DNA of 5,608 nt from Candidatus Desantisbacteria bacterium CG1_02_49_89. Its GTDB lineage: Bacteria > Desantisbacteria > UBA1551. The notes beneath the pieces are model-generated. The model did no database searches and was not told the origin of the DNA. It was given only the letters and a program-made list of their open reading frames with translations. The stretch is taken from assembly GCA_001871075.1 (NCBI GenBank), contig MNUP01000024.1, positions 1-5,608 of the forward strand, given 5' to 3'. Position numbers and translations under genes: made by a program. This document shows positions 554-5,608 of the stretch, piece by piece. Numbering within the stretch: position 1 is the stretch's first letter; each line of letters starts with the position of its first letter.

Positions 554-2209
<1,656 letters not shown>

Positions 2210-2313: not shown

Positions 2314-2604
2314 TTATTTAACGATGCCGAGGATATCTTCTTCTCTTATGATAAGATAATCCACACCATCGATCTTCACCTCAGACCCGCCGTATTTGGG
2401 GAAAAGAACTTTGTCTCCCTTTTTGACCTGCAGCGGGACCTTCTGACCGCTGTCCAAAAGCTTTCCGTCGCCGACGGCAATAACCTCGCCTTCCTGCGGT
2501 TTCTCCTTCGCCGTATCCGGTATTAAAATCTTGCCTTTGGCTTGTTCTGCCACTTCCTCTAACGGCTTCACCAGAACCCTGTCTCCCAATGGAACTATCT
2601 GCAT
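2314..2604 (-). CDS. groES: Co-chaperonin GroES (Hsp10)
   Basis: GroES is the seven-subunit lid of GroEL, and this 96-residue protein has the usual length. The N-terminal strand [12 protein letters not shown] (4-15) is typical of the fold. The mobile loop (about 16-33) carries the hydrophobic tripeptide ILI at 26-28, equivalent to the IVL that contacts the GroEL apical domain. The roof hairpin region is near 44-57, and the C-terminal half contains [16 protein letters not shown] and the closing REEDILGIV strand. The start at 2602-2604 is fixed by an almost ideal Shine-Dalgarno AAGGAGGTGG at 2620-2611, eight bases upstream of the ATG. It lies 148 bases after dnaK and 125 before groEL, on the same strand with no intervening terminator, so co-transcription is likely. 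No CIRCE operator precedes it. Confidence 0.97.
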
Positions 2605-2752: not shown

Positions 2753-4684
2753 TTATTTATTGTCATCGCGGTGGAATTCCGCGTCAACAGCGCCGTCTTT
2801 CCCGGGCTGCGCCTGTTCGGAACCTTCGGCCTGCGCCTGCGCGCCGGCGCCCGGACCTGCGGCGCTCTCGGCGCCTGCGCTCTCCGCTCCGGGCTGTTCC
2901 TGGCCGGGTTTTGCCTGCCTTTTTGTCTGCGCTTCCTTATAAACAGCCTCGGAAAGGCGGTAAGTCGCGTTGGTGAGTTCCTCCGTCGCCTTCTTGATCT
3001 TTTCCGCGTCCTTTCCTTTCAAGGCTTCTTTCACTGTGTTTATCGAAGATTCGATCTTTGATTTCTCGTCAGCCTTGATCTTGTCCCCGTGCTCCTTGAG
3101 CAGTTTCTCGGTCTGGTAAACAAGAGAATCAGCCTGGTTCCTCGCTTCCACTTCCTCCTTGCGTCTTGCGTCTTCCGCGGCCGCTTTCTCGGCTTCCTTG
3201 ACCATCCTGTCAATTTCATCCTTTGAAAGCTTTGTGGGGGCTGTGATCCTTATGCTCTGTTCCTTACCTGTACCAAGGTCTTTCGCGGAAACGTGCAGTA
3301 TGCCGTCCGTATCGATATCAAACGCGACCTCGATCTGCGGGATTCCGCGCTGCGCCGGCAGTATGCCTGTGAGCTGGAAAGTGCCGAGTTTCGTATTGTC
3401 ATCAGCCATCGTCCTTTCTCCCTGCAGCACGACTATAGCAACTTCAGGCTGGTTGTCTGCCGCGGTCGAAAAGATCTGGCTTCTGCGCGCGGGAATAGTT
3501 GTATTCCTTTCGATCAGTTTCGTGAGAACGCCTCCCAGCGTTTCAACTCCCAGGGAAAGCGGCGTTACGTCAAGCAGGACAAGGTCCTTGTCTTTCAGCT
3601 CTCCTGCGATCACCGCGCCCTGGACAGCCGCGCCCATTGCAACGCACTCCATTGGGTCAATGCCCCTTTCAACCTTTTTACCGACATAATCTTCAACGAA
3701 TTTCTGCAGCACCGGCATCCTGGTGGGGCCGCCCACAAGTATTATCTTTGAAATTTCGCTGGGGCTTATCTTCGCGTCTTTAAGCGCCTGTTCTATTGAA
3801 CCGCGGCACTTTTCTATGATATCCATAACCAGCTCTTCAAGCTTTGCCCTTCTAAGGGTCAGCGCAAGATGCTTAGGGCCTGTCTGGGGGTCGCCTGTTA
3901 TAAAAGGAAGGTTGATGTCAGTGGAGAGTGTGGTGGAAAGCTCTATCTTCGCCTTCTCCGCCGCCTCCCGCACCCTCTGCATTGCCATTTTATCCTTCTT
4001 AAGGTCTATGCCCGATTCCTTCTTGAATTCCCCGGCAACGTAATCAACAAGGATGTTATCCATATCAGTGCCGCCCAGCTGTGTGTCACCGCTGGTTGAC
4101 ATAACCTTGAAAACACCCTTATCCATGTCCATTATTGTAACATCCAGAGTGCCGCCGCCGAAATCAAAAACCATGATCTTCTGTTCCTGTTCCAGCTTAT
4201 CAAGCCCGTACGCAAGGCAGGCTGCTGTAGGCTCGTTGATTATGCGCACAACGTTCAGGCCGGCTATCGTGCCCGCATCCTTGGTCGCCTGGCGCTGGTT
4301 ATCGTTGAAATACGCAGGGCAGGTTATGACGGCTTTCTCTATCTTACCCCCTATGAACGCCTCAGCGTCCTTCTTGATCTTCTGCAGTATGAACGCGGAT
4401 ATCTGCTGGGGGGTATATTCCTTTCCATATATATTAAGCTTAATGTCCTGGCCCATCTTCCTTTTAACAGCCATAACAGTGCCTTCGGAGTTTGCGACTG
4501 TCTGGCGCCTTGCCGGCTCGCCGACAAGGAGCTGCCCGTCTTTCGTGAATGCGACGTATGAGGGAAACGCCTTACCTCCGATGGATGTGCCCTCGGCGCT
4601 CGGGATTATAACCGGCTTCCCCATCTCCATTACTGACGCCGCTGAATTGCTTGTTCCCAGGTCTATTCCTATAATTTTGGCCAT
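2753..4684 (-). CDS. dnaK: Molecular chaperone DnaK (Hsp70)
   Basis: DnaK is a cytosolic ATP-dependent chaperone that binds exposed hydrophobic peptides, normally cycling with DnaJ and GrpE. The 643-residue protein has phosphate-loop motif IDLGTSNS (7-14), catalytic Lys74 in AVKR, NEPTAA (150-155), phosphate-2 motif [14 protein letters not shown] (172-185), Thr201 in [18 protein letters not shown] (315-324), linker [11 protein letters not shown] (369-379), and a substrate domain followed by a helical lid to about 590. Residues 591-630 are an Ala/Gly/Pro/Gln/Glu-rich linker, ending in VDAEF (633-637) and a DDNK tail. Between AVKR and PQQISA the sequence is about 20 residues shorter than in E. 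coli, as in Gram-positive and archaeal DnaK. The start is supported by GAGG at 4694-4691, six bases upstream. It is first gene after the sigma-54 promoter. No dnaJ or grpE adjoins it. Confidence 0.98.
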
Positions 4685-4707
4685 TGTGCACCTCGCTTTC
4701 CAACTAC

Positions 4708-4785
4708 AGTGTCAAGTAACAAGTGCCAAGTGTCAAGTAGAAACTGTTTTTACTAACTACTTGTTACTTGTAACTTGTTACTATT
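4708..4785. repeat. Inverted heptamer arrays in the dnaK 5' UTR
   Basis: Heptamers AGTGTCA, AGTAACA, AGTGCCA, AGTGTCA and a partial AGTAGAA run from 4708 to 4742. Inverted TACTTGT, TACTTGT, AACTTGT and TACTATT run from 4758 to 4785. The inner CAAGTAG (4734-4740) and CTACTTG (4757-4763) are perfect inverted repeats. In dnaK mRNA the arms would form a ladder of five-base helices separated by small internal loops, starting about at the predicted transcript 5' end. The Shine-Dalgarno (4689-4694) lies outside the stem, so direct masking of translation is not indicated. A 5' stabilising stem-loop is one possibility. Confidence 0.85.
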
Positions 4786-4791
4786 TAATAA

Positions 4792-4806
4792 GCAAGGAGA
4801 GTGCCA
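4792..4806 (-). promoter_or_regulatory. Sigma-54 (RpoN) promoter for dnaK-groES-groEL
   Basis: The minus strand reads TTGGCACTCTCCTTGCTT. It matches the sigma-54 core TGGCAC-N5-TTGC at every position, with GG (-24) and GC (-12) separated by the required ten bases. Transcription would begin near 4780, giving a dnaK leader of about 96 bases. Sigma-54 holoenzyme needs an AAA+ activator to open this class of promoter, and such a gene lies immediately upstream on the same strand. I saw no comparably good sigma-70 promoter here and no intact CIRCE. This is a sequence match only and has no experimental support in the window. Confidence 0.8.
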
Positions 4807-4817
4807 ACTTGGTTAGA

Positions 4818-4845
4818 ATTGCAAATTGCAAATTGCAGATTGCAG
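4818..4845. repeat. Four tandem heptamers just upstream of the sigma-54 promoter
   Basis: ATTGCAA, ATTGCAA, ATTGCAG, ATTGCAG occur in direct tandem, from about -38 to -65 relative to the predicted start. Unlike the arrays within the operon there is no inverted partner array. Downstream on the plus strand, 4846-4885 is AT-rich. The array may be simply another member of the short-repeat population, or a protein-binding site between enhancer and promoter. Nothing in the sequence decides between these. Confidence 0.75.
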
Positions 4846-4933
4846 ATTTATATTGATTTTATTGAGAAATAATTGAAACTATAATTATATAGCCGTGATA
4901 ATCTGTGTAAATCAGTGTCTAAATATGCCTTGT

Positions 4934-4975
4934 ATGTTCCGTTTTGAAACAATTTATATGTTCCATCTTGATACA
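4934..4975. other. Paired 17-base repeat: activator-site candidate or IS-end relic
   Basis: ATGTTCCGTTTTGAAAC (4934-4950) and ATGTTCCATCTTGATAC (4958-4974) are direct repeats 24 bases apart. Each contains an imperfect dyad, TGTTCC-N5-GAAACA (4935-4951) and TGTTCC-N5-GATACA (4959-4975). They sit roughly 155-195 bases upstream of the predicted dnaK transcription start, a usual distance for enhancer sites of sigma-54 activators. However, they also resemble the paired terminal subrepeats of the IS relic at 38-76 and 313-351 in both sequence and period (23-24). Either reading is possible. Confidence 0.45.
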
Positions 4976-5062: not shown

Positions 5063-5140
5063 TTTCGTAGTTTCCTCGCCCATCCTTTTAGGTGGGCGAA
5101 GTCTCGCCCGCTGAAAGACGGGCGGAGTGCTTTCGTAGTT
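5063..5140. repeat. GC-rich double hairpin flanked by 10-base direct repeats
   Basis: The direct repeat TTTCGTAGTT occurs at 5063-5072 and 5131-5140. Between the copies are two GC-rich hairpins. In the first, TCGCCCA (5076-5082) pairs with TGGGCGA (5093-5099), with inner CCT/AGG pairs around a TTT loop. In the second, CGCCCG (5105-5110) pairs with CGGGCG (5119-5124). The flanks are AT-rich, so the block looks like an inserted extragenic palindromic element with a target duplication. The second direct repeat overlaps the stop codon of the activator gene (5139-5141). No T-run follows either stem on the minus strand, so it is not a standard intrinsic terminator. Confidence 0.7.
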
Positions 5141-5608
5141 AATACTTGAGGCTGAATTTTTTCATTTTGCGGATGAGTGTTGTCCGGCCTATACGCAGTT
5201 TTTTGGCAGCCTGGCTTTGGTTGCCGTGGCATTTTACGAGGGTTTCCCTGATGGCTTCCTTTTCCATGTCTTCCATTGTCCTGAATTCAGGGGTAACAGG
5301 CTCGGGAAGGGCCTGCCTTGCCGGTATAAAGGCGGGAAGCTCGTTTTTCGTAATCGTATTGCCTTCGGACACTATGACCGCGTGCTGTATTATGTTGTCA
5401 AGCTCCCTGACATTTCCCGGATATTCATAATTCAGCAGCATCACCATTGCCTCATCGGAAATGTTCGCGATATTTTTTTTGAACTGCTGGTTGTATGCGC
5501 GTAGAAAGTAGGCAAGCAGGAGCGGAATATCATCCTTTCTTTCCCTTAAGGGCGGTATGTGGATCTGGATAACGTTTATGCGGAAAAACAGGTCTTCCCG
5601 GAAAGTTC
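5139..5608 (-). CDS. Sigma-54 enhancer-binding protein (NtrC family), C-terminal part
   Basis: The reading frame is open to the window edge and encodes the last 155 residues. It begins TFREDLFFRINVIQIHIPPL followed by RERKDDIPLL, the end of the AAA+ core of bacterial enhancer-binding proteins, including the conserved REDL-F-R arginine region. YPGNVREL (5400-5423) is the sensor II motif. After a variable linker rich in Pro and Glu, a Fis-type helix-turn-helix closes the protein (NQSQAAKKLRIGRTTLIRKM, within 5154-5225), ending SLKY. Such proteins hydrolyse ATP to open sigma-54 promoters after binding upstream enhancers. The N-terminal sensory domain and GAFTGA loop lie beyond the window, so whether it is a phosphorylated response regulator is unknown. 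Its position before a sigma-54 promoter on dnaK suggests local regulation. An internal ATG at 5447 is not the start. Confidence 0.95.
   Translation of the reverse strand, partial: TFREDLFFRINVIQIHIPPLRERKDDIPLLLAYFLRAYNQQFKKNIANISDEAMVMLLNYEYPGNVRELDNIIQHAVIVSEGNTITKNELPAFIPARQALPEPVTPEFRTMEDMEKEAIRETLVKCHGNQSQAAKKLRIGRTTLIRKMKKFSLKY

Follow-up and report, generated by a model that had tools for sequence, protein, structure and literature searches.

The question raised by this locus is how a general chaperone operon, dnaK-groES-groEL, is switched on, and whether sigma-54 has a part in it. Heat-shock control is usually taught as repression through HrcA and CIRCE or as the work of sigma-32. The window, that is, the whole stretch of 5,608 bases that was analysed, is a complete contig (G000:C33; MNUP01000024.1) within a 2.48-Mb draft genome (G000). 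Its minus strand carries, in this order, an open reading frame cut by the contig edge (5606-5139), a gap of 454 bases, dnaK, groES and groEL. The dnaK gene (2753-4684, minus strand, ATG at 4684) encodes 643 amino acids; its product scores over the curated threshold for DnaK, and no other DnaK was seen in the G000 genome. The groES (2314-2604, minus strand, 96 amino acids, Pfam Cpn10) and groEL (554-2188, minus strand, 544 amino acids, Pfam Cpn60_TCP1) genes come next, and from this arrangement the three genes would be read as a single transcript.

The original prediction placed this operon behind an exact sigma-54 core, TGGCAC-N5-TTGC, correctly oriented and about 110 bases before dnaK, and put the chance occurrence of such a string at about once per million positions per strand. 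These points were confirmed. The predicted -24/-12 promoter, TGGCACTCTCCTTGC (4792-4806, minus strand), has no mismatches to the core, is its sole exact copy in the window and is oriented toward dnaK, with the final C of the -12 GC located 107 bases from the start codon and a predicted transcript start near 4780. The estimated rate was also correct, since about 0.011 exact matches are expected by chance in the window (both strands), and 0.0004 on the correct strand of the intergenic region.

Nevertheless, the exact string occurs twice in the 2.48 Mb of G000 versus six times for a reversed control pattern. There is thus no enrichment of the string as such, and by itself it settles nothing. This count is what would favour a fortuitous string, with dnaK under ordinary control. 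Such a reading is contradicted by the conservation of the site in a relative, the adjacent activator gene, the tandem dyads at a kept spacing and the recurrence at heat-shock genes, all described below, and it is considered very improbable. The site stands above chance because of its position, its conservation, the neighbouring activator gene and the enhancers. The second exact copy in G000 sits within a pilin-like ORF. Separately, TGGCACGGTTTTTGTT was observed in another contig (G000:C95, L004, near 1890, minus strand), 76 bases 5' of a pilin-like ORF; it may be a sigma-54 promoter of the PilR type whose -12 element is weak.

Concerning conservation within the phylum, which rests on one relative of the same order by taxonomy (G001), the gene order matches that of the window: activator, exact -24/-12, dnaK, groES and groEL, the last two keeping their positions. 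The G001 dnaK is 79% identical to that of the window, the gap between activator and dnaK measures 316 bases, and the promoter TGGCACGCTTATTGC is an exact -24/-12 counterpart in the same place, given as 97 bases before dnaK. The window gaps at 4685-4850, 2625-2760 and 440-545 also contain short repeated words (caagtaacaagt, gattacggtgattatcaact, agattgcaaattgc, attatgagttatgaatt), from which the counterpart gaps of G001 are largely free.

The genome also encodes RpoN, on which the prediction depended: an ORF of 481 amino acids shows the Pfam profile Sigma54_DBD at 7.8e-49. On the other hand, hrcA was not found in G000 or G001 (drafts 87 and 94% complete), and CIRCE was not found at either phylum locus, the best match having 7 mismatches out of 18. 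These results bear on another interpretation of the site, in which TGGCACTC would be the decayed left arm of CIRCE (TTAGCACTC) and not a -24 box. GCACTC is indeed present in the site, but a right arm is missing, the best locus match is the poor one just mentioned, hrcA is found in neither genome, and in G001 TGGCACGC comes with an intact -12 element. This interpretation was rejected as hardly credible.

Two features that give most weight to a sigma-54 promoter were absent from the original prediction. One is the cut ORF (5139-5606, minus strand), which encodes the C-terminal 155 amino acids of a sigma-54 enhancer-binding protein (EBP), with Pfam AAA_lid_14 and HTH_8 (a Fis-type helix-turn-helix); the contig edge cuts off the N-terminal part, where the Walker motifs and the GAFTGA loop would lie. 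The fragment is 76% identical to the complete G001 activator (322 amino acids), which consists of an AAA+ sigma-54 interaction domain (E 5.7e-72) and a DNA-binding domain. Pfam detected no receiver or other sensor domain in the complete G001 protein, and its reading frame is closed 15 codons 5' of the start. Its activity is thus probably controlled by a partner protein or through the amount of the activator itself. Identity with PspF did not follow from the profile comparison, as the G001 activator scored 273.9 bits against an NCBIfam equivalog cut-off of 443.6. It should also be noted that in this protein (L035 2275-3243) GAFTDA replaces GAFTGA in the sigma-54 contact loop. The D. vulgaris survey has GAFTDA in DVU2106 as well, an activator to which it assigns cell division operons (PMC4641369).

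Between the activator gene and the promoter there are two enhancer-like dyads. Dyad 1, TGTTTCAAAACGGAACA (4935-4951, minus strand), is located 128 bases upstream of the -24 box and has 16 of its 17 bases in common with G001, and dyad 2, TGTATCAAGATGGAACA (4959-4975, minus strand), is an exact pattern match placed 24 bases upstream of dyad 1. The alignment of the two gaps showed one strongly conserved block outside the promoter, TGTTTCAAAAyGGAACAtA. The dyad TGTWTC-N5-GRAACA, a tandem pair in the window, is therefore also present in the G001 gap, where only the right half of dyad 2 is kept, at the same -24 offset. Exact matches to the pattern TGTWTCNNNNYGGAACA are restricted genome-wide to two in G000, both before dnaK, and one in G001. 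The near dyad and the -24 box are 128 bases apart in the window and 130 in G001, a steady distance while that from promoter to ATG changed from 107 to 82, which indicates that the dyad spacing itself is conserved. With a spacing constraint of their own, and next to an activator gene, the dyads look like an upstream activator sequence to which the EBP would bind. Dyads with one mismatch elsewhere in G000 and G001 were discarded as regulon members, as there is no strong -24/-12 element alongside. Together, the activator gene (5139-5606) and the tandem enhancers (4935-4975) are the strongest support for the promoter.

The same intergenic region contains a possible sigma-70 promoter, TTTACA-16-TATAAT (4884-4911, minus strand), which matches 11 of 12 consensus positions on the right strand and lies between the enhancers and the sigma-54 box. 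This site may provide basal dnaK expression, with sigma-54 adding to it and not replacing it. A stronger version makes it the main promoter of dnaK, with the sigma-54 promoter as an accessory; tandem sigma-66/sigma-54 promoters are reported for hrcA-grpE-dnaK of Chlamydia (PMC8762339). However, the site has no counterpart in the G001 locus, where the sigma-54 site is exact, and sigma-70-like sites matching at least 9 of 12 positions arise about once per kb by chance in the region. This division of labour is a possibility of some weight, though not the arrangement to be expected here.

To see where else the enhancer and promoter occur as a pair, the dyad and a -24/-12 element 70-130 bases apart were searched in 386 genomes across bacteria chosen by relatedness. 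Five places were obtained, with none for the reversed-pattern control: dnaK in G000 and in G001, two places in G025 (a dnaK with hsp20 behind it, and clpB), and three consecutive hsp20 genes in G165. A second search, which covered the G165 phylum (392 genomes) with a slightly looser pattern, recovered hsp20 genes in G165 (again), G698 and G682 and a gene of the sigma-70 family in G430, again with no control matches. A third search covered the G013 phylum (40 genomes) and gave a single match, in G809, which is probably due to chance; it lies in GC-rich DNA, with 215 bases between it and an unrelated gene. In total, about 800 genomes yielded nine places, and the reversed-pattern controls none; seven precede dnaK, clpB or hsp20, one precedes the sigma-70-family gene and one is the probable chance match. 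The downstream gene families were confirmed by Pfam and NCBIfam. Three of the nine places had served to draw the pattern and are consequently not independent, but four of the remaining six are classical heat-shock genes, and the probability of at least four of six is about 1.5e-7 if about 1% of genes are assumed to be of heat-shock type. Extra dyads (0-2 mismatches) are found close to the main one in G682, G430 and G165. Most of the genomes searched, including two relatives from the G025 phylum, had no such pair.

In G430 (G430:C113, L184, 1501-2594), the sigma-70-family gene with the dyad and the sigma-54 box is directly downstream of an EBP gene. This layout could possibly represent a cascade from sigma-54 to a sigma-70-type factor, comparable to Rrp2-RpoN-RpoS of Borrelia.

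In an activator tree built from the AAA+ and DNA-binding regions, one G025 protein is the sister of the activators of the window and G001 (support 100/98), so that a genome sharing the enhancer, at dnaK and clpB, also has the nearest activator. This G025 protein carries a receiver domain, which was probably lost in the window lineage or, alternatively, gained in G025. The closest activators of G165, G682, G698 and G430, together with G013_1485, form a second clade (support 82/96), which includes the single full-length activator of G682. The recognition helices of both clades are similar (GRKTL versus GRTTL). As the closest activators are split over two clades, one orthologous activator in all these genomes is not claimed.

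In a survey made independently of the dyad, strong -24/-12 elements (score of at least 14) precede dnaK in 6 of about 110 upstream regions, compared with 0.1% of shuffled ones, which indicates that more than one lineage acquired or kept sigma-54 control of dnaK. In a set of 80 named dnaK loci of Omnitrophota, Elusimicrobiota, Planctomycetota and others, neither a strong -24/-12 element before dnaK nor a directly upstream EBP gene was found. Sigma-54 boxes were observed before dnaK in G013 (L024), G008 (L016) and G002 (L027), where they are strong, and in G054 (L025), where the box is weaker. The TGTWTC-N5-GRWACA dyad was not found at these four boxes, which suggests that sigma-54 controls dnaK independently there, by way of different enhancers.

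Regarding all these data, dnaK-groES-groEL is very probably a sigma-54-dependent operon driven by a dedicated EBP encoded directly upstream. The promoter is convincing because rpoN is present and neither HrcA nor CIRCE was found, an activator gene lies upstream, the order is kept in G001 and the dyads are conserved. The sigma-54 reading of the original prediction was thus supported by rpoN, the G001 locus, the activator gene and the tandem enhancers. Two conditions that would have spoken against it, a genome lacking rpoN and loss of the -24/-12 element in a relative (G001), were checked and neither applied. In the mechanism proposed, EBP dimers would occupy the two TGTWTC-N5-GRAACA dyads, which lie in tandem about 150 bases upstream of the -12 box, and assemble into an AAA+ ring. 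Through DNA looping, the ring would reach the sigma-54 RNA polymerase waiting at TGGCACTCTCCTTGC, and ATP hydrolysis by the EBP would melt the promoter. An operon dependent on such an ATP-driven activator would leak very little when not induced and switch on sharply, unless a second promoter supplied the basal expression that it needs. In the window lineage, this EBP/sigma-54 pair appears to stand in for HrcA/CIRCE control, and the operon would be one local instance of a broader regulon of sigma-54 chaperone genes that elsewhere includes dnaK, clpB and hsp20.

The sequence itself shows the promoter, rpoN, the activator gene, the dyads with their spacing, the lack of a detectable hrcA or CIRCE and the recurrence at heat-shock genes. 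Protein-folding stress as the inducing condition, and with it the signal-gated heat-shock response put forward originally, is inferred. A different cue, such as nitrogen, redox or envelope stress, would make the EBP-driven promoter real but part of a specialised circuit and not of a heat-shock one. By analogy, NifA drives groESL3 in Bradyrhizobium, and the G001 activator has no recognisable sensor domain while its G025 homologue has a receiver domain. Against it, the DnaK of this operon is the only one found in the G000 genome, and the recurrence of the pair before clpB and hsp20 points to common folding stress and not to nitrogen or redox metabolism. A specialised cue is thus rather unlikely.

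The EBP could possibly be gated by the chaperones themselves, a speculation by analogy with the HrcA-GroE and sigma-32-DnaK feedback loops; if true, gating by free chaperone would be the positive-control mirror image of the HrcA-GroE loop. The broadest picture can be put forward only tentatively, and it is doubtful as a whole: a sigma-54 heat-shock response spread over several lineages, with TGTWTC-N5-GRWACA as enhancer code, would govern the dnaK-groESL, clpB and hsp20 genes. Within the window lineage, it would have replaced HrcA and sigma-32, and its activator would have lost the receiver domain and come to be gated directly by free chaperone. In any case, the enhancer-promoter pair offers a definite pattern by which a sigma-54 chaperone regulon can be searched for, and since candidate activators can be named in several genomes, which bacteria use sigma-54 for heat shock becomes testable.

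The original prediction considered sigma-54 chaperone promoters unusual. This needs some qualification: Chlamydia hrcA-grpE-dnaK and Myxococcus lonD with HsfA have been reported, and a 2025 survey predicts more. In Bradyrhizobium, groESL3 is a chaperonin operon under NifA and sigma-54, one of several groESL copies and tied to nitrogen fixation; both systems use sigma-54, whereas the window has an apparently single dnaK together with groESL and an activator of its own. The enterobacterial PspF is a sensorless activator made of AAA+ and Fis-type domains, whose gene lies beside a sigma-54 stress operon, with pspF divergent and its product gated by PspA. The G001 activator is similar in being sensorless, in its AAA+ and Fis-type domains and in adjoining its sigma-54 target, but it is far below the PspF cut-off, lies in tandem with the target and has GAFTDA.

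In Chlamydia trachomatis, the tandem sigma-66/sigma-54 promoters of hrcA-grpE-dnaK have AtoC as activator (PMC8762339, citing Soules et al. 2020). As in the window, the operon includes dnaK, a promoter is of the sigma-54 type and the activator belongs to the NtrC family; in Chlamydia, however, HrcA is the principal regulator and heat shock lowers rpoN, while in the window no hrcA was found, the activator gene adjoins the operon, the enhancers are dedicated and groESL is included. In Myxococcus xanthus, HsfB-HsfA controls lonD (Ueki and Inouye 2002, cited in PMC9109919), and HsfA also controls secondary metabolism and pilY1 (PMC9109919). HsfA is likewise an NtrC-like activator that directly controls a heat-shock gene, but this target is a protease gene, and HsfA is described there as a phosphorelay response regulator, with no link to dnaK-groESL. 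In Planctomycetota and Bacteroidota, the GroEL, GroES, GrpE, DnaJ, DnaK and IbpA genes have predicted sigma-54 promoters (PMC12316311), although the sections on these predictions name no activator, enhancer or dedicated operon of this kind. A targeted look at the sigma-54 regulome of D. vulgaris found no chaperone regulon (PMC4641369). In the literature consulted, with few subscription papers, neither the TGTWTC enhancer nor a dnaK-groESL operon that has a dedicated activator was described. Compared with HrcA/CIRCE and sigma-32, the targets are the same, but those systems rely on negative control or on an alternative sigma-70 factor. Hence, sigma-54 control of chaperones was already known, while the dedicated activator layout and the enhancer shared with heat-shock genes appear to be new.
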